64,000 nt of DNA from Isosphaera sp. (GTDB lineage: Bacteria; Planctomycetota; Planctomycetia; Gemmatales; Gemmataceae). Positions 1,120 through 12,734 of this stretch are shown piece by piece. Position numbers and translations under genes: made by a program. A model generated the notes under the pieces. The model did no database searches, had not been told where the DNA came from, and was given only the letters and a program-made list of their open reading frames with translations. Each line of letters opens with the position of its first letter. Position 1 is the first letter of the stretch. The stretch lies in NCBI GenBank assembly GCA_013822345.1, contig PNKH01000027.1, positions 1 to 64,000 on the forward strand, in the 5' to 3' direction.

Positions 1120-2112
1120 ATGACCGACCTGCCGACCGCGATCCGGACCGTCCGGTGGATGGTGCGCGACACGTTCCGCCAGTCCGTCGCGTCCAAGCTG
1201 TTCTGGGTGATGCTCGGGGTCACCCTGCTCTGCACCGTGTTCTGCTTCGGCATCACCGTCGACGTGCCTGGGGAGCGGCCGCGGCACCCGCACGAGATCC
1301 CGAGCCGCATCCCGGCCGGCCAGGTCGCCCCGGGCGCCGCCGAGGGGACGCCGGTCTCCGGCGGGCGGATGTCGCTCGGGTTCGGGCTGGTCGAGTTCGG
1401 GGTGCCGAAGTTCCGGGCGGACGCCGTCCGGTTCCTCCAGGTGTGGCTCGCCGGGGTGCTCGCCGACACCGTCGGGGTGCTGCTCGCCCTGGTCTGGACG
1501 GCCGGGTTCCTGCCGACGTTCCTGGAGCCGCACGCGGTCACCGTGCTGCTGGCGAAGCCGGCGCCGCGGTGGTCGCTGCTGGTCGGCAAGTACCTCGGGG
1601 TGGTGCTGTTCGTCGGGCTGCACGCCGCCCTGTTCGTCGGCGGGACGTGGGTCGGGATCGGGGCGAGCACCGGGGTGTGGGACCCGGCCTACTGGCTCGC
1701 CGTCCCGCTCCTGGTGACGAACTTCGCCGTCTTCTACGCGGTCAGCGCGCTGCTGGCGGTGTGCACCCGGAGCACGGTGGTGGCCATCTTCGGGACGATC
1801 CTGTTCTGGGTGCTGTGCTGGGCGATGAACCTGACCCACCACCGGCTCGCCGGGTTCGACGTGCCGGGGGTGTCGGCCGCGTCCGCGACCCTGGTGGAGG
1901 CGGGGTACTGGGTGCTGCCGAAGCCGCTGGACCTGAGCGGGCTGTTCTTCGAGGTGATGGGGGCGGGGGCGTACTCGATGCCGGTGCCGGAGCTGGCGGC
2001 GGTGCGGGAGAAAGGGCTGTTCCGGCCGGACCTGGCGGTCGGGTCGTCGCTGCTGGCGGCCGCCGCGGTGCTCGGCCTGGCCGCCTACGAGTTCCGCAAG
2101 ACGGACTACTGA
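1120..2112 (+). CDS. ABC-2 type transporter permease
   Basis: Membrane subunit of the ABC transporter whose ATPase lies upstream. The 330-residue protein starts at ATG 1120 (MTDLPTAIRTVRW). The frame is open from 886, but that stretch only translates the palindromic repeat and is excluded. One hydrophobic segment near residues 30-45 (SKLFWVMLGVTLL) is followed by a periplasmic-looking loop, then a cluster of five membrane segments (for example LADTVGVLLALVWTAGF and LLAVCTRSTVVAIFGTILF). The product ends in FRKTDY, a typical cytosolic tail. The fold is that of ABC-2/NosY-like permeases; the cargo is unknown. Confidence 0.85.
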   Translation: MTDLPTAIRTVRWMVRDTFRQSVASKLFWVMLGVTLLCTVFCFGITVDVPGERPRHPHEIPSRIPAGQVAPGAAEGTPVSGGRMSLGFGLVEFGVPKFRADAVRFLQVWLAGVLADTVGVLLALVWTAGFLPTFLEPHAVTVLLAKPAPRWSLLVGKYLGVVLFVGLHAALFVGGTWVGIGASTGVWDPAYWLAVPLLVTNFAVFYAVSALLAVCTRSTVVAIFGTILFWVLCWAMNLTHHRLAGFDVPGVSAASATLVEAGYWVLPKPLDLSGLFFEVMGAGAYSMPVPELAAVREKGLFRPDLAVGSSLLAAAAVLGLAAYEFRKTDY

Positions 2113-2128
2113 GGCGGTGTTCCCGAGC

Positions 2129-2181
2129 CCGTAGGGTGCCGTCGAGGCCCGCGCTTCGCGGGCCTCGACGGCACCCTACGG
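2129..2181. terminator. 25-bp perfect hairpin between convergent genes
   Basis: Arms at 2129-2153 and 2157-2181 are perfectly complementary, with a CTT loop. It lies 16 bp after the permease stop and 36 bp after the stop of the convergent FHA gene, so it can serve as a bidirectional terminator. There is no U-tract. The stem is far longer than an ordinary intrinsic terminator and resembles the other boundary palindromes in the window. Confidence 0.6.
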
Positions 2182-2217
2182 GGCATCCCGGCACCCGCCG
2201 TCGCCCGCCCGTCCGGG

Positions 2218-2970
2218 TCACGCCCCGGGCTGAAGGCGGAACCGCTGCTCCCCGATCAGGAAGTAGCACACCTTGTCGACGGTCACCTGCGGGACCCGCA
2301 GCCACACCCCGTTCAGCGCCCCGTCGTGCTCCACCGCCCACCCGCGGCCGGGGGCGTGGTACACCCGGGCGTGGTACGGCTCGGCGAACGGGTCGGCCCG
2401 CCGGACCTCGCACCCCGGGGCGGTGCCGATCCACGCCTCCGCCCCGGTCACCCGGACCGACACCCCGGCCACCCCCCCGACCACCTCGGTCAGCGTCGGC
2501 GGCGGGCCGGCCGCGAACCGGTACCGGCCCCGCCCGACCACGAACTCCGACCCGGCCGACAGCGGCGCCCGGTTCACCCGGACGAACAGCCCGTCGGTGC
2601 CGCCGGCGTCGGCCACCGTCCACCGCCACCCGTCGGCCGTCTTCTCCCGGCGGATGGTGACGTGCGGGGACGCGACCCGGTCGTCGTGTGGGATCAGCAC
2701 GTCGCCGGCCGTCCGCCCGATCCGCACGACCGCGGCCCGGAGCCGCACCACCTCCCCGTCCGCCGCCCCGTCGTCGTAGACGGTGAGCAGGGCGGTCGGC
2801 GGGCGGTCGGTCGGGCGGTACGCCTCGGCCGGGAGGAGCCCGGGCTCGCCGGCCGAGGACGACGCCCCGGCCGCCCGCCGCGGGCCGTCGTCCTCGGCCG
2901 GGATCGGCACCCCCATCACCGTCTCTTCGCGGTCGTCCGGGTCGGGCCGGCGGGGCGGGTTCGGCGTCAT
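2218..2970 (-). CDS. Tandem FHA-domain protein
   Basis: A 250-residue cytosolic protein with a Pro- and charge-rich N-terminal tail followed by two FHA-like beta-sandwiches. The first (about 55-160) carries VVRIGR, a Ser in ASPHVTI and a region like the FHA asparagine loop; the second (about 165-248) is more degenerate (WIGTAPGC, YHARVYH). FHA domains bind phosphothreonine, so it is a natural reader for the kinase encoded directly upstream. The start ATG overlaps the kinase stop codon (ATGA), implying translational coupling. It is the last gene of the five-gene minus-strand operon. The phospho-target is unknown. Confidence 0.82.
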   Translation of the reverse strand: MTPNPPRRPDPDDREETVMGVPIPAEDDGPRRAAGASSSAGEPGLLPAEAYRPTDRPPTALLTVYDDGAADGEVVRLRAAVVRIGRTAGDVLIPHDDRVASPHVTIRREKTADGWRWTVADAGGTDGLFVRVNRAPLSAGSEFVVGRGRYRFAAGPPPTLTEVVGGVAGVSVRVTGAEAWIGTAPGCEVRRADPFAEPYHARVYHAPGRGWAVEHDGALNGVWLRVPQVTVDKVCYFLIGEQRFRLQPGA

Positions 2971-4337
2971 ATCGGCTTCCAGATCTTGCCCCCGCCGTCC
3001 TTCTGCGGGGAGGTCGGCTCGGTCGGCTTCCCGCCGGCGGTCAGCGCCGCGTACAGCCCGTACGCCCCGCCGGCGAGCAGGGCGAGGGCGAGGGCCACCA
3101 CCCCGACCTTCGCCGCCACCTGGCCCCACCGCGGCGGGGGCTGGGCGGACAGCGACCGCGCCACCCCGGTGCCGCTCCCCCGGGCCGGCCGGGGCCGGCC
3201 GACCACCGGCCGCGGCGGCGGGGCCAGCGGCAGCCCGCCGGCCGTCGACTCGGCCCCGACCGACTCGGCCTCGGCCGGCTCGGCCACCGGGACGTGCGGG
3301 GCCGACCCGCCGCCCGACCCCCGCCGGCCCGGGGCCGGGGCGACCGGCTGCGGCTGCCACGCCTCGGCCTTCACCCGGACGACCCACCCGTCCAGCGCCT
3401 CGGCGAACTCGGCCCCGGTCTGGTACCGGTCCCGGGCCCGCTTCGCCAGCCCGCGCAGGACGATCGGGTCCAGCCGCGGGTCCAGCCCCGGGCGGACGGC
3501 CGACGGCGGGGCGGCCGGCACCCGCTGGATGTCGTACAGGATCTGCGGCATCTTCGAGTCGAACGGCGGGCGGCCGGTCAGCAGGTGGTACAGGACGGCC
3601 GCCGCCGCGTACAGGTCGGACGTGTGCCCGGTGTCCCGGATCCGCCCGGCCGCCTGCTCCGGGGACATGTAGAACGGCGTCCCGAGCAGCGTCCCCTCGG
3701 TGGTCCGGGTCTCGTCCGTGTCGTGGCACACGGCCAGGCCGAAGTCCATCAGGTACAGCCCGTCCTGCTCCCCGGCCGGGAGCATCATGTTCGCCGGCTT
3801 CACGTCCCGGTGGAGGATGGCCTTGGCGGCGTAGATGTCGTGCAGGGTGCGAGTCAGCTTGACGGCCAGCCGGACCGCCTCGACCGGGTCGGCGAACCCG
3901 CCCGGCGGGATCGCCTCCCGGACCGTCTTCCCGTCGATGAACGCGAACACGATGTACTGCTGTCCGCCGTACTCCCCGAGGTCCAGGATGTCCGGGACGT
4001 GGGCGTGCCGGACCCCGCACAGGAGCTTCGCCTCGGCCTGGAACCGGCGGACCGCGTCCGGGGTGGCCAGGGCCCGTTCCAGCAGCATCTTGACCGCCAC
4101 CCACTTCCCGTGCAGCCGGGTGTCCCGGGCCTTGTACACCACCCCGAACGCCCCGCGGCCCAGCTCCTGCACCAGCTCGTACCGGTCCCCGACCAGGGTC
4201 CGCGGGCCGGCGGCGGCCGGCGGGGGCGGGCCGAGCGGCACCGCCTTGCGGCACCGCGGGCACGTGCCGGTCCGGCCGGCCGCGTCCGCCGGGTACTTGA
4301 ACTCCTGACCGCACGCCGGACACCGCGCGACGGCCAT
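2967..4337 (-). CDS. Zinc-ribbon Ser/Thr protein kinase with C-terminal membrane anchor
   Basis: Hanks-type kinase of 456 residues. An N-terminal zinc ribbon (Cys 6, 9, 26, 29) precedes the catalytic domain: glycine loop GRGAFGVV (60-67), Lys83, catalytic HRDVKPANMM, the FGL magnesium motif and MSPEQAAG. A Pro/Ala-rich linker leads to one transmembrane helix near residues 410-430 (VVALALALLAGGAYGLYAAL) and a short outer tail. The kinase domain is cytosolic. It overlaps the FHA gene by 4 bp and starts 16 bp after the exported Ppx-like lipoprotein gene. The same zinc-ribbon type recurs in two other proteins of the operon, which supports a shared pathway. Confidence 0.9.
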   Translation of the reverse strand: MAVARCPACGQEFKYPADAAGRTGTCPRCRKAVPLGPPPPAAAGPRTLVGDRYELVQELGRGAFGVVYKARDTRLHGKWVAVKMLLERALATPDAVRRFQAEAKLLCGVRHAHVPDILDLGEYGGQQYIVFAFIDGKTVREAIPPGGFADPVEAVRLAVKLTRTLHDIYAAKAILHRDVKPANMMLPAGEQDGLYLMDFGLAVCHDTDETRTTEGTLLGTPFYMSPEQAAGRIRDTGHTSDLYAAAAVLYHLLTGRPPFDSKMPQILYDIQRVPAAPPSAVRPGLDPRLDPIVLRGLAKRARDRYQTGAEFAEALDGWVVRVKAEAWQPQPVAPAPGRRGSGGGSAPHVPVAEPAEAESVGAESTAGGLPLAPPPRPVVGRPRPARGSGTGVARSLSAQPPPRWGQVAAKVGVVALALALLAGGAYGLYAALTAGGKPTEPTSPQKDGGGKIWKPI

Positions 4338-4353
4338 GGCCGACCTCCCGGGG

Positions 4354-5517
4354 TCACTCGGGCAGCTTCGCCTCGCCCATCAGGTAGCCCGCGATCCACG
4401 CGTGCTGCCCCTTCTGGTAGAACGCCACCGTCTTCCCCGGGGCGGCCAGGCCGAGGGCGTCGAACCCCGCCCGCACCACCTCCGCCGCCGCCTGCAGCTC
4501 CTCCGGGGCGAACACCTTCTGCACCCGCTCCACCTCCTTCGCCGCCGCCTCCCGGGCCGCCTCCGGGACCCCCTTCACCGCCCGGGCCCGGGCCTCGTCC
4601 GGCTTCAGCCGGGCCAACTCGGCGAACGCCGCCACGTCGGCTGCGGTCAGCGGGACGCGGGGGTCCTTCGTCGCCGCCGGGTGGGTGAAGGTGGACAGCG
4701 CCCACGACGCCCCGCCGACCATTTGCACGTCGGCCACTTGGTCGGCCCCGGGCGTCCCGGCCAGCAGCTTCTTCAGCGGGCCGGTCAGCACCTCGTCCCG
4801 GTGCCCGGCCACCGCCTCGGCGAACGGCTGCTTCTTCTCGGCGGCGCGCTTTGCCACCTCGTCGTGGTACGCCTTGGTCCCGAACTCCAGGGTGACGCCC
4901 TGGAACCCGGCCGGGGTGAACCACCCGAACTTGGTGTTCGCCCCGCCGACATCGATCACCATCCGCCCGTGCTTCGGGACCGGGCCGAGCACCCCGCGGG
5001 CAGCCAACTCGGCCTCCTGCCGGCCGTCGATGAACCCCGGCGGCCGGCCGGTCGCCTTCTCGAGGGCGGCGGTGATCGCGGCCCGGCCGGCGTCCTTGTC
5101 CTTGACCCGGGACATGACCCCGCTGCTGACCACCACCCGGACCCGGTCGGCGGGGAGGTCGTGCTTGGCGCGCATGGCCTTGACCATGTCGGCGACGGCG
5201 GCGGCGGTGGCGGCGAGGCGGTCCGGGTGGGGCTGGCCGTTTTCGGCCGGGGTGCCGAGGTCGGTGTTCTTGCTCTCGAACGAGGTGTCGGCGTCGAAGT
5301 CCCACCCGCCGGGGCCGCGGGCGAAGGTGAGGACGACCGGCTTGACCCCGCGCGACCCGACGTCGATGCCGGCCCAGGTGCCGGGCGGTTGGCTCGGGGC
5401 CGGGGCGGGGGCGGGAGTTGGGGCGGGGGTCGGGGGCGGGCCGGCCGGCCCGGGTTGGGAGCACCCGCCGAGGGCGGCGGCGAAGAGGGCGACGGTGGCG
5501 AGCAACTGGGACCGCAT
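4354..5517 (-). CDS. Exported lipoprotein with Ppx/GppA-like (actin-fold) domain
   Basis: 387 residues. The signal peptide ends in a lipobox, LGGC with Cys19, followed by a Pro/Ala-rich linker. The rest resembles the exopolyphosphatase/GppA branch of the actin-like ATPase fold: phosphate-1-like WAGIDVGSRGVK, VVSSGVMSR, the family-like DGRQEAELAARGVLG and phosphate-2-like MVIDVGGANTKFG. The C-terminus HAWIAGYLMG matches the upstream paralogue (HAWPVGYILT). Such enzymes normally work in the cytosol on polyphosphate or pppGpp; placement outside the cytoplasm is odd and suggests a binding or sensory role. Fold assignment is by motif only. Confidence 0.7.
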   Translation of the reverse strand: MRSQLLATVALFAAALGGCSQPGPAGPPPTPAPTPAPAPAPSQPPGTWAGIDVGSRGVKPVVLTFARGPGGWDFDADTSFESKNTDLGTPAENGQPHPDRLAATAAAVADMVKAMRAKHDLPADRVRVVVSSGVMSRVKDKDAGRAAITAALEKATGRPPGFIDGRQEAELAARGVLGPVPKHGRMVIDVGGANTKFGWFTPAGFQGVTLEFGTKAYHDEVAKRAAEKKQPFAEAVAGHRDEVLTGPLKKLLAGTPGADQVADVQMVGGASWALSTFTHPAATKDPRVPLTAADVAAFAELARLKPDEARARAVKGVPEAAREAAAKEVERVQKVFAPEELQAAAEVVRAGFDALGLAAPGKTVAFYQKGQHAWIAGYLMGEAKLPE

Positions 5518-5563
5518 CGGACCGGGTCCTCCGGAGTGGTGCGCGTTTCGGGTCGGGCCGCGG

Positions 5564-5603
5564 CCGCCGCTTGCGGCGTTGCGCGCAACGCCGCAAGCGG
5601 CGG
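5564..5603. terminator. 20-bp perfect palindrome between operon genes
   Basis: A fully self-complementary 40-base stretch (arms 5564-5583 and 5584-5603) lying 13 bp after the stop of the zinc-ribbon Ppx-like gene and about 46 bp before the next start. It could be an intra-operon attenuator or mRNA-stabilising hairpin. It has no loop-forming spacer and no U-tract. Confidence 0.5.
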
Positions 5604-5616
5604 ACCCGACGCCCGG

Positions 5617-7110
5617 TCACTTCTCGAACCCGCCCCTGGTCAGGATGTACCCGACCGGCCAGGCGTGCAGGCTGTTGATGTAGAAGTTCACCACCTTGTC
5701 CGGGCCGGCCAGCTGGCACTCGTCCGACAGGGCCTTCAGCAGCGTCCCGCCGGCCACCAGCTGCTGGACGTTGAACTGCCGGCCGACGGCGGACAGCTCC
5801 GCGTCCAGGTGGTCCGGCGGGGTGCCGGGCGGGCGGCGGTCCAGGGCGTCCTTCTTGACCTCGGCGAACGACCCCGCCGACCGGACCAGGGCGAGGTACC
5901 GGTCCACGTCCCCGGGCGCGATCCGGACCTCGGCCGCCCGGGCGTCCGGGTCCGGGACGAACGCCTCCGGGTGGGTGACCACCGCCAGCGCCCAGGCCGA
6001 CCCGCCGAACAGGTAGTACCGGCTGCTGTTCCGCAGGGCCGGGGTGCTGGTCGCGGCCGCCCCGACCCGCTCGGCCAGGGCCCGCCGGCAGGCGTCGGCG
6101 GCGGCCGGGAACGGCACCTTCTCCTTGGCGGCGTGGGCGGCGATCTCCTTCTCGCAGGCGGTCAGCCCGTCCTTCAGCTCCGCCCCCCGGAAGCTGGTGG
6201 TGGTGTCGAAGTACCCGTGCCCGGTCGCCCCCCGCCCGATGTCGAACAGGGCGGACACCGTCCGGTGCTTGTGGGCGATCGCCCCGCGGGCGGCGTGCGC
6301 GATCTCGTCCTGCGGGTTCACCACGTCCAGGTCCTGGCCGGTCCCCTTCCTCACCGCCGCCCGCAGGGCCTGCTCCGCCTCCGCCTGGTCGGCCCCGGCG
6401 AACGGCCGCAACACCTTGCCGTTGGACGCCACCAGGAACCGCGCCGGGGGCACGTTCCGGGCCTTCACCTCCTCGGCGTACTTCGCCAGGATCCGCTCCA
6501 ACTCCGCCAGCGGCTCCGGCGGGACCTTCGGGCCCGCCCCCTTGGGCGGGGCGAACCCGCCCCAGTCGCGATTCTTCTTCGTGTCCACCGTCAGCCCGGC
6601 CACCTCCCGCCCGTCCGCGGTGCGGGACACGTCGACGATCACCAGCCGGACCCCGGACGACTCGACCGCGACGGCGGCCCACCGCTCGGCCGCCCCGGCC
6701 GGGGCCGGGCCGGGCCCCTCGGGGGCCGGGCGGAGGAGGGAGATGATCCCGGCCAGCGACCCGGCGATCACCGCGACCGAGACGATGCTGACCAGCAGCG
6801 GCCCGACCCGCAGCCCGGACCCGGCCGCGTCCGCCCGCGGGGGGAGCGGCGGCGGGTCGCCCGGGCGGCGCGGCACCGCCTCGTCCAGGTACTGGCCGAC
6901 CGGCCAGTCGACCGTCGTCGGGTGCCGGCCGGGGCCGGGGGACGAGAGGGTGCCGCCGACCGCGGCCGCCCCGCTGGTGGTCTCGTCCGGGAGGAGGTCG
7001 ACCTCGAACCGGCACTGGCAGTAGACGCACTCCACCGCCTGCCCGGCGGACCGGTCGTCGACCCGGAGCGGCCGGCGGCAGCTGGGGTTCGGACAGACGA
7101 CGGAGATCAT
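5617..7110 (-). CDS. Zinc-ribbon, single-pass membrane protein with Ppx/GppA-like outer domain
   Basis: 497 residues. The N-terminal zinc ribbon (CPNPSC ... CVYCQC) is followed by a Pro-rich linker, one transmembrane helix near 110-130 (GPLLVSIVSVAVIAGSLAGI) and a large extracytoplasmic domain. That domain parallels the neighbouring lipoprotein: VESSGVRLVIVDV, FLVASNGKV, VSALFDIGRGATGHG and the shared C-terminal HAWPVGYILT. The two are paralogues, one anchored by lipid and one by a helix that carries a zinc ribbon into the cytosol. The glycines and acidic residues needed for nucleotide hydrolysis look only partly kept. A transmembrane sensor is an inference. Confidence 0.7.
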   Translation of the reverse strand: MISVVCPNPSCRRPLRVDDRSAGQAVECVYCQCRFEVDLLPDETTSGAAAVGGTLSSPGPGRHPTTVDWPVGQYLDEAVPRRPGDPPPLPPRADAAGSGLRVGPLLVSIVSVAVIAGSLAGIISLLRPAPEGPGPAPAGAAERWAAVAVESSGVRLVIVDVSRTADGREVAGLTVDTKKNRDWGGFAPPKGAGPKVPPEPLAELERILAKYAEEVKARNVPPARFLVASNGKVLRPFAGADQAEAEQALRAAVRKGTGQDLDVVNPQDEIAHAARGAIAHKHRTVSALFDIGRGATGHGYFDTTTSFRGAELKDGLTACEKEIAAHAAKEKVPFPAAADACRRALAERVGAAATSTPALRNSSRYYLFGGSAWALAVVTHPEAFVPDPDARAAEVRIAPGDVDRYLALVRSAGSFAEVKKDALDRRPPGTPPDHLDAELSAVGRQFNVQQLVAGGTLLKALSDECQLAGPDKVVNFYINSLHAWPVGYILTRGGFEK

Positions 7111-7162
7111 GCGGCGGGCCTCGTCGGGGGGCGGGGGCGGGGCGCGGGCGGACCGGCAGGGC

Positions 7163-7810
7163 TCAGCCGAACCCCGCGACCGGGGGCGCGGCCGGCCAGG
7201 CCGACGGGGCCCGGGCCGCGGCCGGCGGGGCGGCCGGCTTCCGCCCCTTGACGACGTACACCCCGCCGAGGGCGAGGGCCGACGCCACCGCCGCGGTCGC
7301 GAGGATCACCGCCACCGCCTTCTGGAACCCCCACCCGGCCGCCGCCTCCTCCACCCCCTCGAACAGCCGCGGGACGGCGGCCACGGCCGGCTGCCAGTCG
7401 GGCATCCCCTCGGTCCACACCCGGGCGTCCGGACGGAGGGCGCGGTTGGCGGCCGCGGCCCGCAGGTCCTTCTCCCCGACCGGGCCGACCGCGGCCCCCT
7501 TGTACTCGTAGTACCACTTGCGGGAGGGCCGGGCGGCCGACGCCAGCACCTGCGGCTGGGGCTTCGGCGGGGGGACGCGCGGCTGGTCGGCGATCGGCCG
7601 CCGCGGGGGCGGGGGCGGGACGGCGGGCGTCGGCCGCCGGGCGGGCGGCGGGGCGGCCTCCCCCAGGATGGTCGCCGGGTCCGGCTGCGGCGGGTCCGGC
7701 ACCTTCAGCCGTTGCCGGCACGTCTCGTTCCCGCAGACGAACTTGGCCCCGGCCTTGGTGTCCGGGAAGCGGTACGAGTTCCCGCACTTCGGGCAGCGGA
7801 AGCTGATCAT
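7163..7810 (-). CDS. Zinc-ribbon/GYF-domain (DUF4339-like) membrane protein
   Basis: 215 residues from ATG 7810. A GTG at 7843 is in frame, but it would lie on or before the likely transcription start. Order: zinc ribbon (CPKCGNSYRFP ... CGNETCRQ), a Pro-rich linker, a GYF-like domain (WYYEYKGAAVGPVGEKDL ... VWTEGMPDWQPA) and a C-terminal transmembrane helix (VAVILATAAVASALALGGVY). GYF domains bind Pro-rich peptides, and such tails occur in the other proteins of the operon. It is the first gene, 52 bp before the next. Role inferred as scaffold. Confidence 0.8.
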   Translation of the reverse strand: MISFRCPKCGNSYRFPDTKAGAKFVCGNETCRQRLKVPDPPQPDPATILGEAAPPPARRPTPAVPPPPPRRPIADQPRVPPPKPQPQVLASAARPSRKWYYEYKGAAVGPVGEKDLRAAAANRALRPDARVWTEGMPDWQPAVAAVPRLFEGVEEAAAGWGFQKAVAVILATAAVASALALGGVYVVKGRKPAAPPAAARAPSAWPAAPPVAGFG

Positions 7811-7841
7811 GGGGGCCGCCTCGACGGTGACTCGAAAATAC

Positions 7842-7870
7842 ACGGTAAAGTGCTAGCCCCTCACGATCAA
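7842..7870 (-). promoter_or_regulatory. Sigma70-like promoter of the GYF-Ppx-kinase-FHA operon
   Basis: On the minus strand TTGATC (7865-7870) is followed after exactly 17 bp by TACCGT (7842-7847), in an unusually AT-rich stretch. Transcription would begin near 7835, about 25 bases before ATG 7810. This supports that start over GTG 7843. Confidence 0.5.
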
Positions 7871-7930
7871 GCGTTTTCACCCCGGCGCGGCGCGATTCCC
7901 GACCGGCCGCCCGTCCGGGACGGAAGTGGA

Positions 7931-7959
7931 ACCGCCCCGGGCCTTCGGCCCGGGGCGGT
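7931..7959. terminator. 13-bp GC-rich hairpin
   Basis: Perfect arms 7931-7943 and 7947-7959 (ACCGCCCCGGGCC) with a TTC loop. It lies between the sulfatase end and the GYF operon promoter. With the larger hairpin at 8069-8126 it accounts for most of the 391-base gene-free stretch 7811-8201, which otherwise holds only the operon promoter. Confidence 0.5.
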
Positions 7960-8068
7960 GACGGGATCGCGGTTCGCGGTGCCTGGTACCCGGGACGGGA
8001 TCGGCTCGCCGAGCCCGTCGTCCGGAACCGGTCGCGCGGCCATCGCCCGGGCACCCGCCGGCCGGGCC

Positions 8069-8126
8069 GCGCCGGCCGAGGCGGGGCGTTGCCGGCGGCG
8101 ACGGCGGGCCCCGCCTCGGCCGGCGC
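8069..8126 (-). terminator. 19-bp hairpin downstream of sulfatase 1
   Basis: Perfect arms 8069-8087 and 8108-8126 with a 20-base loop, 75 bp after the stop codon of the minus-strand sulfatase. Probably a terminator or 3'-end stabilising structure; no U-tract follows. Confidence 0.5.
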
Positions 8127-8201
8127 TCGGCGAACCACGTCCCGAGCTCTCGGCAGCGCGCCCGCCGGGTCGTCCCGGCTCGCGCCGGGGTCGAGGTGCG
8201 A

Positions 8202-10610
8202 CTACTTCAGCTCGACGGTCACCTTGCGGATCCTGCCGGTGAACTTGTTGTCCCGCTCCTTGTAGTCGTCGGTCACCGGCGTGGCCTCGTCCACCCCCAC
8301 GTCCGCCGTCTCGTCGGCCGAGAAGATGTTCGCGTTGGTGTGCCCGATCTTCCCCTCGGCGACCTTCGCCCCGTTCACGAAGATCGTCCCCGTGCCGCCC
8401 GACCCGGGCTTGCCGCCGGCGTAGGCGAACTCGTACCGGAGCGTCACCTTCCCGGCGGGCAGCGGCTTGTCGGCGGCGACCGTGTATCGCTCCAGCCCGA
8501 CCCAGTTGTAGCAGTACCTCGGCTTCCCGTCCTTGACGTACAGGCTCCACCCGCCGAACCGCCCGGCCTGGCACAGGATCACGCCTTCACACCCCTTCTC
8601 CGGCACCTCGACCTCCGCGGTGACCGTGTGGGACCGGTTCTTGGTGTTGATGAACACGTTCTCCATCATCCCGGTCATCCCCTCGTACACGGTCAGCGAG
8701 GTGCGGCCCTGCATCAGGTCCTTCCGGCCGACCAGGGCGGCGTTGAACCGCTCCTCGACCCGGTCGTCCAGCGGGTAGACGTGGTACTTCACCGCCTCGG
8801 TCGTGAACCGCGCCTGCAGCTCCCTGAGCTTCTCCGGGTGCTTCCCCGCGACGTTGTTCGCCTGGCTGAAGTCCTCGTTCACGTCGTAAAGCTCCCACGT
8901 GTCCTTGTCGAACGAGTCCACCCGCGGCCGGGCCTCCCACGGGGCCTTGTGGACGGTCGCGGCGACCCACCCGTCGTGGTAGATCGCCCGGTTGCAGAAG
9001 ATCTCGAAGTACTGCGTCGTGTGCCGGTCCTTCGCCTTCGCGTCCCCGAAGGTGTAGACCATGCTCACCCCCTCGATCGGCCGCTGGGCGACCCCGTTGA
9101 CGGACTTGGGCTCCGGCAGCCCGCACGCCTCCAGCACCGTCGGGGCCACGTCGATGACGTGGTGGAACTGGCTCCGCACCTCGTTCCTCGCCTTGATCCC
9201 CTTCGGCCAGTGGACGACCAGCGGGTTGCGGGTCCCGCCGAAGTTCGCCGCCACCTGCTTCGTCCAGGTGAACGGGGTGCAGCCGGCGACCGCCCACCCG
9301 GCCGCGTAGTGGCCGTAGGAGTTCGGCCCGCCGAGGTCGTCGATCCGCCCGAGGATGTCCTCGGCCTTCTCGGGGACGCCGTTGAAGTAGGTGCTCTCGT
9401 TGAACAGCCCGTTCATCGTCCCCTCGGCGCTCGCCCCGTTGTCGCCGATCTGGTAGAGGAACAGGGTGTTGTCCATCTGGCCCATCTCCTCCAGGGCCGC
9501 CACCAGCCGGCCGACCTCGTGGTCGGTGTGCTCCCCGAACCCGGCGAACACCTCCATCTGCCGGGCGAACAGCTTCCGCTCGTTGTCGCTCAGCTTGTCC
9601 CAGTCCTTGATCGCCTCCGGCTTCGGGGCGAGCGGGGCGTTCGCGGGGACGACCCCGAGCTTCTTCTGGGCGGCGAGGGTGACCTCCCGCTGCTTGTCCC
9701 AGCCGTGGTCGAACTTCCCCTTGTACTTGTCGATGTACGCCTTCGGGGCGTGGTGCGGGGCGTGCGTCGCGCCGGTGGCGAAGTACATGAAGAACGGCTT
9801 GTCCGGGGTGAGCGCCTTCTGGTACTTCGACCACGCGATGGCCTGGTCGGTCATGTCGGTGGTGAAGTGGTAGTTCGGGTCCTTCGGCGTCTCGACCTTG
9901 GTCAGCCCGTCGTAGACGAGCGGGGCCCACTGGTTCGTCTCCCCGCCGATGAACCCGTAGAACTTGTCGAACCCGCTGCGGGTCGGCCACCGGTCCGTCG
10001 GGCCGGACGGGCTGACCTCCCACACCGGGCACTCGTGGTACTTGCCGAACGCGGCCGTGCTGTACCCGTTCAGCCGGAGCATCTCGGCCAGCGGGGCGAC
10101 GTTGTCCGGCCGCGACCCCGTCTGTCCCGGGAACCCGGTCGCCGTCTCGGTGATCGACCCCATGTTGCAGGAGTGGTGGTTCCGCCCGGTGAGCAGGGCG
10201 CAGCGGGTCGGGGAGCAGAGGGCGGTGGTGTGGAACCGGTTGTACCGCAGCCCGTTGTTCGCCAGCCGCTCCGCCGTCGGCATGTGCACCGGCCCGCCGA
10301 ACGCGCTCGACTGGCCGAACCCCATGTCGTCGATCAGCACGATCACGACGTTCGGCGCCCCCTTCGGGGCGGTCACGTCGAACCGCGGCGGGACCTTCAC
10401 CTTCCGGGCGTCGATCTCGGTGATCGGGTCGCGCTTCGGCTGCGGGATCGGGAGGACGGTGCGGTCGAGTTGGTCCGGGGCGGCCCCGTCGCCGGCCGCC
10501 GCCTTGTCCTGCGCCCCGGCCGGGGCCGCGGGCCAGTGGGCGACGGCTGCGTAACCGAGCGCGACGGCGGCGAGCGCCGCGGCCGGGAGAATCCACCTGC
10601 TGCGTCGCAT
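8202..10610 (-). CDS. Exported arylsulfatase (formylglycine-dependent), CSPTR type
   Basis: 802-residue sulfatase. ATG 10610 is chosen over ATG 10625 because AGGA precedes it by 8 bases and it opens directly into the signal peptide (MRRSRWILPAAALAAVALG). Metal-binding Asp94-Asp95 (VLIDDMGFG) and the formylglycine motif C132-S-P-T-R136 followed by LLTGR are intact. A C-terminal extension of roughly 150 residues (from about 650) looks like a beta-sandwich that could bind glycan. It hydrolyses sulfate esters, probably of algal or host polysaccharides, outside the cytoplasm. It needs a formylglycine-generating enzyme, not seen here. It follows sulfatase 2 after 122 bp. Confidence 0.92.
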   Translation of the reverse strand: MRRSRWILPAAALAAVALGYAAVAHWPAAPAGAQDKAAAGDGAAPDQLDRTVLPIPQPKRDPITEIDARKVKVPPRFDVTAPKGAPNVVIVLIDDMGFGQSSAFGGPVHMPTAERLANNGLRYNRFHTTALCSPTRCALLTGRNHHSCNMGSITETATGFPGQTGSRPDNVAPLAEMLRLNGYSTAAFGKYHECPVWEVSPSGPTDRWPTRSGFDKFYGFIGGETNQWAPLVYDGLTKVETPKDPNYHFTTDMTDQAIAWSKYQKALTPDKPFFMYFATGATHAPHHAPKAYIDKYKGKFDHGWDKQREVTLAAQKKLGVVPANAPLAPKPEAIKDWDKLSDNERKLFARQMEVFAGFGEHTDHEVGRLVAALEEMGQMDNTLFLYQIGDNGASAEGTMNGLFNESTYFNGVPEKAEDILGRIDDLGGPNSYGHYAAGWAVAGCTPFTWTKQVAANFGGTRNPLVVHWPKGIKARNEVRSQFHHVIDVAPTVLEACGLPEPKSVNGVAQRPIEGVSMVYTFGDAKAKDRHTTQYFEIFCNRAIYHDGWVAATVHKAPWEARPRVDSFDKDTWELYDVNEDFSQANNVAGKHPEKLRELQARFTTEAVKYHVYPLDDRVEERFNAALVGRKDLMQGRTSLTVYEGMTGMMENVFINTKNRSHTVTAEVEVPEKGCEGVILCQAGRFGGWSLYVKDGKPRYCYNWVGLERYTVAADKPLPAGKVTLRYEFAYAGGKPGSGGTGTIFVNGAKVAEGKIGHTNANIFSADETADVGVDEATPVTDDYKERDNKFTGRIRKVTVELK

Positions 10611-10694
10611 GTCGTGAGTCCTCATGGGCGTGAGCGTCAGACACCGACCCCGGACGGCGGGTCGGCCGCCGAGGGGTCGGGTTTCCGGACCGCT

Positions 10695-10725
10695 GCCCGC
10701 CCCCGCTGCCCGGGTGGGGGCGGGC
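10695..10725 (-). terminator. 10-bp hairpin after sulfatase 2
   Basis: Arms GCCCGCCCCC (10695-10704) and GGGGGCGGGC (10716-10725), 7 bp past the stop codon of sulfatase 2 and before the start of sulfatase 1. It suggests partial termination between the two genes. Confidence 0.55.
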
Positions 10726-10732
10726 GGGCGGT

Positions 10733-12484
10733 TCACTTGCTCCCGCCGCCCTCGCTCAGCTTCTTCATCACGTCGTCGATGTTGAAGCTCGCGGCCTTCT
10801 GCCGCGGCGGGAACTCCTTGAACGTCATCAGGAACTTGCCCACGTAGTCCTGGGCCGGGACGAGCAGGAAGGCGCGGTCCAGCAGCCAGTCGTAGTAGGT
10901 GTTCGAGGTCACGTCGGCCCGCTCGTACGGGTCGGTGCGGAGGTTGAAGATCTTCGGGACCCGGAGCGGGGTGAACGGTTCGGCCCACACCCGCAGGGTG
11001 CCCGGGGCCCGCTGCTCCAGGAACACCAGCTTGAAGTTGTCGTACCGCAGGGCGGTGAGCTGCTGGTCGTCGTTGCAGTACAGGAACGACTCCCGCGGCC
11101 CCTTCCCGGCCTGCCCGGTCAGGTGCGGGACGAGGTTGTACCCGTCGAGGTGGACCTTGTAGGACGTGTCCCCCAGCTTGTGACCCTTGAGCAACTTGGC
11201 GGCGATGTCGGGCTCGCCGGCGACGGCCGCCAGGGTGGGCAGCCAGTCGAGGTGGGAGGCGATCTGGTTCGACACGCTCCCCGGCTTGATCTTCCCCGGC
11301 CACCGGACCAGGCACGGCACCCGGTACGCCCCCTCCCAGTTCGAGTTCTTCTCGTTCCGGAACGGGGTCATGGCCGCGTCCGGCCAGGTGTTCAGGTGCG
11401 GCCCGTTGTCGGTCGAGTACATGACGAACGTGTTGTCCGCGACGCCGGCGTCGTCGAGCGCTTTCAGCACGGTGCCCACGTTCTTGTCGTGGTCGATCAT
11501 CGCGTCGGCGTACTCGCTCATCCACCGGCCGGACTGGCCCCTGCTCGCCGGCTTCACGTAGGTGCGGAAGTGCATGTGGGTGAAGTTCACCCACACGAAG
11601 AACGGCTTGCCGGCCTTCGCCTGCCTGCCGATGAACTCCGCCGCCCGGCCGGCGATGTCGTCGTCCACCGTCTCCATCCGCTTCTTGGTGAGCGGGCCGG
11701 TGTCCGTGATCGTCTGCCTGCCGACCTTGCCGAACCGCGGGTCGACGGTCGGGTCGTCCTTGTCGGCGGCCCTGGTGTCCAACACCCCGCGGGGCCCGTA
11801 CCGGGCGCGGAACGCCGGGTCCTTCGGGTAGTCCGGGTGCTCCGGCTCCTCCTCCGCGTTCAGGTGGTACAGGTTGCCGTAGAACTCGTCGAACCCGTGC
11901 GCCGTGGGCAGGTGCTCGTTCCGGTCGCCCAGGTGGTTCTTGCCGAACTGCCCGGTGGCGTACCCGAGCGGCCGGAGCACCTCGGCGATCGTCGGGTCCT
12001 CCTTCTGGAGGCCGAGCGAGGCCCCCGGCAACCCGACCTTCGTCAGCCCGGTGCGCATGCCGTGCTGGCCGGTGATGAACGACGCCCGCCCGGCGGTGCA
12101 GCTCTGCTCGCCGTAGTAGTCGGTGAACAGCACCCCCTCCCGGGCGACGCGGTCGATGTTCGGGGTGCGGTGGCCCATCAGCCCCATCGTGTACGCGCTG
12201 ATGTTCGACTGCCCGACATCGTCGCCCCAGATGATGCAGATGTTCGGCTTCTTCCCGTCCTTCTGGAGGTTGGCCGACACCCGCGCGTTGTGCGCCGCGA
12301 CGGCCGCCCGGTCGCCCGTGCCGCAGTCCCCCGCCGGCGGGGCCGCCGGCCGCGCCTCCGGCGGCCCGGGCGGGGACGCCTGGGCCGGCCCGTCCGGCCA
12401 CAGGCGCCCCGACGCGGCGGCGTACCCGAGGAGTCCGCCGGCGACCACGAGCGCCGCGGCCCGGAGTCGGTTCGTGCCCGTCAT
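10733..12484 (-). CDS. Exported arylsulfatase (formylglycine-dependent), CTAGR type
   Basis: 583 residues from ATG 12484, preceded by GGGAG. The frame extends upstream, but that part lacks a signal peptide and spans the promoter. It begins with a signal-type segment (AAALVVAGGLLGYAAASG). Metal ligands Asp88-Asp89 (IWGDDVGQS), the formylglycine motif C129-T-A-G-R133 (CxAxR subclass) and a distal STDNGPH motif are present. It differs strongly from sulfatase 1, so this is not a recent duplication; the pair may remove different sulfate positions of one polymer. A strong promoter lies about 140 bp upstream and may drive both genes. Confidence 0.92.
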   Translation of the reverse strand: MTGTNRLRAAALVVAGGLLGYAAASGRLWPDGPAQASPPGPPEARPAAPPAGDCGTGDRAAVAAHNARVSANLQKDGKKPNICIIWGDDVGQSNISAYTMGLMGHRTPNIDRVAREGVLFTDYYGEQSCTAGRASFITGQHGMRTGLTKVGLPGASLGLQKEDPTIAEVLRPLGYATGQFGKNHLGDRNEHLPTAHGFDEFYGNLYHLNAEEEPEHPDYPKDPAFRARYGPRGVLDTRAADKDDPTVDPRFGKVGRQTITDTGPLTKKRMETVDDDIAGRAAEFIGRQAKAGKPFFVWVNFTHMHFRTYVKPASRGQSGRWMSEYADAMIDHDKNVGTVLKALDDAGVADNTFVMYSTDNGPHLNTWPDAAMTPFRNEKNSNWEGAYRVPCLVRWPGKIKPGSVSNQIASHLDWLPTLAAVAGEPDIAAKLLKGHKLGDTSYKVHLDGYNLVPHLTGQAGKGPRESFLYCNDDQQLTALRYDNFKLVFLEQRAPGTLRVWAEPFTPLRVPKIFNLRTDPYERADVTSNTYYDWLLDRAFLLVPAQDYVGKFLMTFKEFPPRQKAASFNIDDVMKKLSEGGGSK

Positions 12485-12631
12485 CGACTTCTCCCGGTGG
12501 GAACACGGCTTCGTCACCCGCGCCCGTGACGGGGCGGACACCACGCGCGGGGCGCGGGCCGTACCCGACCACACGCCCGGATCGACTGCGGGGTTGGGGT
12601 GACGTTGAAGCGGAGTTGGAGTCGTAAGGGG

Positions 12632-12660
12632 ATTGTCGGGAGGCGCCGCGGACCTGTCAA
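12632..12660 (-). promoter_or_regulatory. Sigma70-like promoter of the sulfatase pair
   Basis: On the minus strand TTGACA (12655-12660), a perfect -35 box, is followed after 17 bp by GACAAT (12632-12637, four of six matches). Transcription from about 12625 leaves a leader of roughly 140 bases before the sulfatase start at 12484. Confidence 0.6.
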
Positions 12661-12686
12661 CGAGTTTCTGGCGAACTTCAACTCGT
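12660..12686 (-). terminator. Weak hairpin after the outer-membrane barrel gene
   Basis: Arms ACGAGTT (12660-12666) and AACTCGT (12680-12686), about 50 bp past the stop of the 12735-13661 gene and touching the -35 box of the sulfatase promoter. A modest terminator candidate. Confidence 0.3.
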
Positions 12687-12734
12687 GAGAGCGGCCGGGA
12701 CGCCCGCGGGTGGCGCTGCACCCCGGCCGTGCCG

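Follow-up and report, generated by a model that had tools for sequence, protein, structure and literature searches.

Phosphatases of the Ppx/GppA family (PF02541), a family that degrades polyphosphate and pppGpp and usually works within the cell, include PPX and GppA of E. coli, GppA of H. pylori and PPX of D. radiodurans (DrPPX). Five genes on the minus strand of an Isosphaera sp. genome (assembly GCA_013822345.1, contig PNKH01000027.1; positions 1 to 64,000 of the forward strand, termed the window) bring two relatives of these enzymes together with a Ser/Thr kinase. The cluster occupies positions 2218-7810 in the order GYF, Ppx1, Ppx2, kinase and FHA, and encodes a zinc-ribbon GYF protein with a transmembrane (TM) helix, a zinc-ribbon TM protein with a Ppx-like domain, a Ppx-like putative lipoprotein, a zinc-ribbon TM kinase and a protein with two FHA stretches, which confirms the composition given in a preliminary description of this DNA. 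By their coordinates the genes are separated by 52 bp (GYF-Ppx1), 99 bp (Ppx1-Ppx2) and 16 bp (Ppx2-kinase), and the kinase and FHA genes overlap by 4 bp, bearing out the single strand and short gaps reported there. With a probability of about one half, the cluster is considered to encode a membrane Ser/Thr-kinase module in which an exported, converted and poorly hydrolysing Ppx domain binds a phosphate-rich ligand. The pathway proposed in the preliminary description, in which exported actin-fold domains sense such a ligand and kinase and FHA protein relay the signal inside, is partly supported: the fold, the predicted export, the intact kinase and part of the neighbourhood agree with it, but the five genes do not form a conserved unit.

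The two window proteins are like the Ppx/GppA phosphatases in whole-domain fold and in the position of the catalytic Glu; unlike them, they are predicted to be exported, have lost the Glu of the GGGSTE motif and are less negative in both phosphate loops. They possess a single Ppx domain, as does the Aquifex enzyme and unlike the two-domain PPX. The Ppx family also contains Rtg2p of yeast, a eukaryotic protein that is not exported. This signalling protein likewise lacks the same Glu, with Gln165 in its place (PMC5417653, in part); it differs in having Gln rather than Lys and no membrane kinase. The ecto-NTPDases (CD39 type) are exported and have the same kind of fold, but are weaker structural matches than the best Ppx/GppA protein, and no NTPDase family match was found in the Pfam and NCBIfam scans of the five genes. 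PknB-type TM kinases and kinase-FHA pairs resemble the window kinase in its best match (PknB_PASTA), intact kinase motifs, single TM helix and adjoining FHA gene; the window kinase, however, has an N-terminal zinc ribbon and neither PASTA nor any other outside domain, the putative outside domain being a separate protein. Finally, the GTPase-centred conflict systems with GAP1-N2 share GYF-trypsin proteins, zinc ribbons, TM anchoring, Hsp70 and zinc-ribbon kinases with the present loci (PMC7159879, in part). No match to a TRAFAC GTPase is present in Pfam scans of the five genes, four genes of locus L012 and three of locus L058, and the main text of PMC7159879 holds 0 occurrences of ppx or exopolyphosphatase. 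Gemmataceae possess about 100 kinases, and the outside domains mentioned in the available part of PMC11032199 are WD40 and TPR, not Ppx. As the preliminary description had stated, no system of this composition is among the literature matches listed, which is no proof of novelty, and one narrow literature search found no bacterial receptor for extracellular polyphosphate.

Ppx1 (497 amino acids; 5617-7110, minus strand) consists of a zinc ribbon (residues about 1-40), a linker, a TM helix (104-126) and a Ppx/GppA-like domain (140-497; 5620-6693, minus strand) predicted to lie outside; in this domain the catalytic-Glu position is kept, the Asp of loop 1 has become Ala and the Glu of GGGSTE has become Gly. 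Ppx2 (387 amino acids; 4354-5517, minus strand) starts with a hydrophobic stretch that ends in the lipobox-like signal LGGC, followed by a Ppx/GppA-like domain at 43-387. Its first phosphate loop (residues 52-59; 5341-5364, minus strand) reads DVGSRGVK and its second (residues 189-198; 4924-4953, minus strand) DVGGANTKFG, in which Lys196 replaces the Glu of GGGSTE. Family models recognize both proteins weakly. Ppx2 matches the exopolyphosphatase model TIGR03706 at 2.1e-8 (33.8 bits, far under the cut-off of 307) and PF02541 at 1e-4 (22.3 bits, below the gathering cut-off of 27), for Ppx1 the TIGR03706 match is as weak as 0.0094 and there is none to PF02541, and a relative, L058:366-1460, passes the PF02541 cut-off at 32.1 bits. 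A profile of 10 relatives compared with solved chains finds GppA/Ppx at 1.1e-14 (6pc0), with 18 distinct sequences at E <0.001. AlphaFold models have a mean predicted local distance difference test score (pLDDT) of 88.1 for Ppx2 (10-row alignment) and 81.8 for Ppx1 (15-row alignment). Their best structural matches are 3cer for Ppx2 (Z 29.9, 3.3 A, 307 residues) and 1t6c for Ppx1 (Z 26.8, 2.8 A, 299 residues); for both models Ppx/GppA proteins come first and ecto-NTPDases next (Z 20.5-25.0 for Ppx2 and 18.6-22.0 for Ppx1, among the matches listed). Structure prediction thus upholds the actin/Ppx fold claimed earlier for both domains.

The active site of these proteins is converted, a result that is new here and had escaped the preliminary description. 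The residues of 15 proteins of the exported type (those of 17 matched proteins that remain when the contig-cut fragments G001 and G084:C958 are left out) were aligned with those of 20 ordinary Ppx, comprising 19 loci from the phylum and one protein from genome G069, whose cellular location was not known beforehand; all 20 were used without choice by motif, and an earlier motif-chosen comparison, in which 5 of the 20 were lost, gave the same trend. The Glu of GGGSTE (E143 of DrPPX, E150 of E. coli PPX) is found in 19 of the 20 ordinary proteins and in none of the 15 exported ones, where it is replaced by Lys (11), Gly (2), Arg (1) or His (1). The position of DrPPX R86 is Arg in all 20 ordinary proteins and in 0/15 exported proteins. 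At the D7 position all ordinary proteins have Asp, which is lost in 12 of the 15 exported proteins (Glu in 11, Ala in Ppx1) and kept in three. At N11, Asn (17/20 ordinary) gives way to Lys or Arg (10/15 exported), and at S12, Ser or Thr (17/20) to Gly (13/15). The net charge of the two phosphate loops lies between -3 and -1 among ordinary proteins and is 0 or +1 among exported ones. The G084:C958 fragment, outside these counts, reads DIGSGNTK in loop 2. In DrPPX, docking and simulation place E114, D136 and E143 in contact with a water molecule and D7 with the Mg, and kcat/Km falls from 2.28 to 0.04 in E143A and to 0.05 in D7A (PMC11234463, in part). The H. pylori GppA structure with ppGpp carries, by its title, the change E143A, which concerns the same Glu according to the aligned chain sequences. 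Since the E143, R86 and D7 positions are converted, binding is favoured over hydrolysis, and the alignment points to exported Ppx proteins that would bind a ligand with weak or no hydrolysis.

An outside location of the Ppx domains is likely from the topology predicted for them. Among the 15 full-length members, a TM helix precedes the domain in four (Ppx1 of the window and one protein each of genomes G029, G076 and G084), and the other 11 belong to the secreted type. With a 12-residue hydropathy window the N termini of the latter score 1.67-3.05, and those of the ordinary Ppx that have at least 12 residues before the domain (14 of the 20) score no higher than 1.77. The charges before and after the TM helix are +2/0 in the kinase, which favours an inside N terminus, and nearly even (+1/0) in Ppx1. 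Export of both domains, as first described, is accordingly supported as a prediction, for Ppx1 by its TM helix and for Ppx2 by its lipobox-like signal.

Relatives of the Ppx-like proteins were found by profile search in 9 of 102 genomes of the order, belonging to 6 of 44 genera and all to the family of the window, the Gemmataceae. A search at family level matched 10 of 95 genomes, one of them G069, whose protein (45.9 bits) was rejected as an ordinary Ppx. When up to five candidates were scored in each of 392 genomes of the phylum, 84 gave matches at E 1e-10, which outside the window's own genome reach 69.9 bits at most; members of the exported family score 97 to 452 bits, with the lowest two of these scores coming from contig-cut fragments. 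Apart from the window's genome, 83 genomes had a match in the phylum; the loci from these that were examined individually, 19 in number, are ordinary Ppx to judge from their loops and lengths, and one of them has no Glu of the GGGSTE type. In a phylogenetic tree with many long branches, the 15 full-length exported proteins lie on one side of a branch and four ordinary Ppx on the other (100/99). The idea that each pair represents two ancient subfamilies is unsupported, as both copies are common only to G005 and G015 and the deep forks, whose branches are long, are for the most part unresolved. Bacteria beyond the phylum were reached only through two weak pattern scans: a scan of a species-genome collection with Ppx2 alone gave 34 pattern-matching stretches, none of which encodes a relative, and a second with four closer proteins gave three loci, all from Planctomycetota, which are no measure of absence because other known members were missed.

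Two exported Ppx genes occur in one locus in seven of the nine genomes. They are adjacent in the window, G026, G005, G015 and G066, flank the kinase gene in G076 and overlap in G084, with the second truncated where the contig stops; G029 has its two copies on separate contigs, and G001 shows a single fragment at the end of a contig. A zinc-ribbon TM Ppx is encoded in three loci (window, G029 and G076), and these same three contain an adjoining kinase gene; loci without such a Ppx show no adjoining kinase where their contigs extend. The order in G029 is zinc-ribbon GYF-trypsin, zinc-ribbon TM Ppx, zinc-ribbon kinase and Hsp70, the GYF counterpart being fused to a trypsin-like peptidase (L012 10007-11617) and the Hsp70-like gene following the kinase (L012 5319-6917). 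In G076 the order is zinc-ribbon HEAT, zinc-ribbon TM Ppx, zinc-ribbon kinase and secreted Ppx. The GYF-Ppx-kinase order is thus common to the window and G029, which belong to different genera (g1 and g12); this part of the neighbourhood proposed earlier stands, but the FHA gene is not shared and the five genes are not conserved together. In G066 a kinase is encoded one gene beyond the adjoining position (L057 14296-17148). G084 encodes a TIR-TM-Ppx fusion (L059 347-2242; TIR_2 at 1e-19), followed with an 11-bp overlap by a contig-cut gene for a secreted Ppx (L059 1-357), the rest of which seems to be carried by G084:C958 (L060), together with an extension that is TPR-like by eye. Because of this fusion, the Ppx domain is taken to be combined across the membrane with inside domains of more than one kind. 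Other genes in the vicinity include, in G005, a Tubulin_2 gene (L015 7752-11348; 4.7e-55) about 3.4 kb from the secreted Ppx pair and, by eye, a large vWA-like protein (L015 3-3302), both on the opposite strand to the pair, and in G001 a vWA gene adjoining the Ppx fragment.

The kinase (456 amino acids; 2967-4337, minus strand) comprises a zinc ribbon, a kinase domain, a linker, a TM helix (about 407-425) and a tail of 31 residues. Its assignment in the preliminary description holds, as the motifs GxGxxG, VAVK, HRD, DFG and SPE are all intact and Pkinase is matched at 2.4e-32, above the Pfam cut-off; the best match of the domain is PknB_PASTA (1.1e-64, 219.5 bits, cut-off 450), and no PASTA match is found in the protein by Pfam, with 31 residues beyond the TM helix. 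At 1e-20 this kinase matches 77 proteins in its own genome (G000), 112 in G005, 118 in G029, 112 in G076, 76 in G026 and 91 in G066, and 36 in G015 and 37 in G084, two smaller or less well assembled genomes; up to 150 candidates were scored in each, that is 150 of 235 in G029 and 150 of 194 in G076. The kinase adjoining Ppx is the best match in G029 (303 bits, the next 188) and in G076 (211 bits, the next 181), and the two lead again when 17 candidates are scored in each of 95 family genomes, followed by a kinase of G100 (208.8 bits). In a tree of 15 kinases, in which the fetched kinases were chosen by motif and the L074 kinase is not included, the window and G029 kinases group together at 100/99. 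From these scores and groupings the partnership of Ppx and kinase is well supported for the window and G029, and no more than suggested for G076.

The GYF protein (215 amino acids; 7163-7810, minus strand) has an N-terminal zinc ribbon, a proline-rich linker, a GYF_2 domain at 99-142 (1.4e-13, above the Pfam cut-off), a TM helix (about 166-184) and a 31-residue tail. Its sole match in G029 is the gene of the Ppx cluster (51.8 bits), and in G076 a slightly better match (56.7 bits) lies outside its own Ppx cluster. Similar N-terminal zinc ribbons in three of the five proteins, noted previously, can be read from the sequence, where they share an inner spacing of 16 residues (C-x2-C-x16-C-x4-C, C-x4-C-x16-C-x2-C and C-x2-C-x16-C-x2-C); Pfam zinc-ribbon models give matches below cut-off, and none for Ppx1. 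The FHA protein (250 amino acids; 2218-2970, minus strand) carries REETVMG near its N terminus and matches PF00498 in two stretches (1.7e-8, above cut-off). The first repeat retains GR, S and H, and the second is without the Arg of GR and the Ser, residues usual in the phosphothreonine pocket of FHA domains; the tandem reader described earlier therefore has two FHA stretches, of which the second looks degenerate. The motif T-[VMIL]-[VMIL]-[GAVS] occurs eight times in 11 cytoplasmic linkers, with four copies in the G029 Ppx linker (0/5000 shuffles), one each in the linkers of the window GYF and FHA proteins and of the G076 Ppx and kinase, and none in the remaining six, including those of window Ppx1 and kinase; the linker counted for the G029 GYF protein is residues 36-126. 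Because the pattern was devised after the sequences had been seen, these figures are no test, and the motif is also found in several unrelated kinases, in some within the activation loop. The four repeats of the G029 Ppx protein (L012 8395-9966) read RTMMG, RTVLA, RTVIV and GTMMA and may be phosphorylation sites.

The arrangement suggests the following mechanism. Because the kinase has just 31 residues past its TM helix, any sensing outside would need a partner protein, and Ppx1 is proposed as the relay because the zinc-ribbon TM Ppx is the partner most consistently found near the kinase. Ppx1, anchored by its TM helix with the zinc ribbon inside, and its lipoprotein partner Ppx2 would make up the outside part of the module; we infer this pairing, as well as the direction of the signal. 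The two Ppx domains may bind polyphosphate, phosphate or a nucleotide and hydrolyse it hardly or not at all, and binding would alter Ppx1 across the membrane and thereby the activity of the neighbouring zinc-ribbon kinase. The GYF protein, and in the window perhaps the FHA protein, would assemble or read the phosphorylated complex. Polyphosphate is a plausible ligand because the window's genome contains a polyphosphate kinase match (194.8 bits) and a PF02541 search of it gives no match besides Ppx2, so that no ordinary Ppx is found in an assembly that is 95.2% complete.

A number of observations weigh against the proposed kinase module. The catalytic Glu (E114 of DrPPX, E121 of E. coli PPX) is kept in all 15 exported proteins (18 of the 20 ordinary ones) and the loop-2 Asp at the D136 position in 13 of the 15 (17 of 20), so some activity may remain. 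These residues, the resemblance of both models to extracellular ecto-NTPDases and the lack of an ordinary Ppx match in the window's genome would suit working ecto-phosphatases that degrade polyphosphate or nucleotides outside, the kinase only tuning the response to the released phosphate; this is unlikely, however, considering the loss of the GGGSTE Glu and of the R86 residue throughout and of the loop-1 Asp in most members, and the drop in DrPPX activity when Ala is placed at two of the corresponding sites. Topology gives further points of caution. A 19-residue hydropathy window calls an N-terminal stretch in seven of the 11 secreted-type proteins and misses four, including Ppx2; with the 12-residue window 10 of the 11 lie above all 14 ordinary proteins and the second copy of G026 overlaps this control; and the charges flanking the TM helix of the GYF protein (-2/+3) are contrary to an inside N terminus. 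As export is read from hydropathy and position, the topology is likely and not more than that. A kinase adjoins a Ppx gene in only three of the nine genomes, and none adjoins on the visible contig sides in G005, G015, G026, G066 and G084 (G015 being cut upstream and G005 downstream). The FHA protein has no convincing counterpart in the seven other genomes searched, where the sole FHA match is one of 21.6 bits in G084. The G100 kinase scores nearly as high as that of G076 (208.8 and 211.4 bits) and is longer and, by eye, of another build, with no Ppx on its 8.2-kb contig, and the G076 kinase falls in a set of five (96/96) with those of the window and G029 and with G100 and G007 kinases that have no known Ppx neighbours, so that its orthology to the window kinase is not established. 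The window kinase also scores 236 bits with the PADLOC defence kinase model PD-T4-6, PADLOC models having no printed cut-offs.

This last match belongs with a second explanation, that of a conflict or kin-recognition system in which exported Ppx would detect phosphate-rich debris of lysed neighbours and drive inside effectors such as TIR, trypsin or kinase. Members of the family occur as TIR-TM-Ppx (G084) and beside GYF-trypsin, kinase and Hsp70 (G029) or HEAT and kinase (G076), Tubulin_2 and vWA genes lie near the Ppx genes of G005 and G001, and the GTPase-centred systems include GYF pairs fused to trypsin, zinc-ribbon kinases and Hsp70 (PMC7159879, in part). It is nevertheless a decidedly unlikely reading, given that no GTPase is found among the five genes or the Pfam-scanned neighbours (GAP1 was not searched for), that PADLOC models would also match other kinases, TIR or trypsin domains, and that the window's own cluster has no evident effector; the TIR, trypsin, Hsp70 and GYF surroundings, together with the PD-T4-6 match, would allow a role in danger sensing or defence. 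That the genes are chance neighbours and not one pathway, a kinase beside a Ppx pair meaning little in genomes with about 100 kinases (76 to 118 matches in the six larger sets), is in agreement with the three kinase-adjoining genomes in nine, the unconserved FHA gene and a dispersed palindrome between Ppx1 and Ppx2, but is the most improbable of these explanations, since in both G029 and G076 the kinase next to Ppx outscores all others among more than 100 matches, and genera g1 and g12 have the GYF-Ppx-kinase order in common.

The palindrome just mentioned (34 bp; 5567-5600, no strand) belongs to a family dispersed over 12 genomic places at up to two mismatches (reversed control 0), in several variants of which both arms are still complementary. 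An inverted repeat with perfectly matching arms of 26 bp around a 3-bp loop (2128-2182, no strand) lies between the FHA gene and a converging plus-strand gene and is possibly a two-way terminator. The strand of the cluster also carries, further upstream, two large tandem genes that look sulfatase-like by eye from their translations (8202-12721), and the nearest long open reading frame on that strand ends about 390 bp ahead of the GYF start. The promoter placed before the first gene in the preliminary description was not confirmed, a scan of 1900-8300 for sigma-70-type sites, the type it covers, giving none. The window has a G+C content of 74%, and its genome assembly amounts to 7.47 Mb in 226 contigs.

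Returning to the membrane kinase module, a wider and more tentative proposal is that these proteins form a new class of receptor, in which Ppx/GppA domains would have turned into exported, pair-forming binders through a change of charge in both phosphate loops and would be joined across the membrane to varied inside domains, zinc ribbon and kinase or TIR, giving Gemmataceae a means of reading extracellular polyphosphate or nucleotides. If the module operates as proposed, a family that degrades polyphosphate and pppGpp would have been re-used as an outside sensor by a simple change of charge in two phosphate loops, and an input would be identified for one kinase among the roughly 100 that a Gemmataceae genome encodes.

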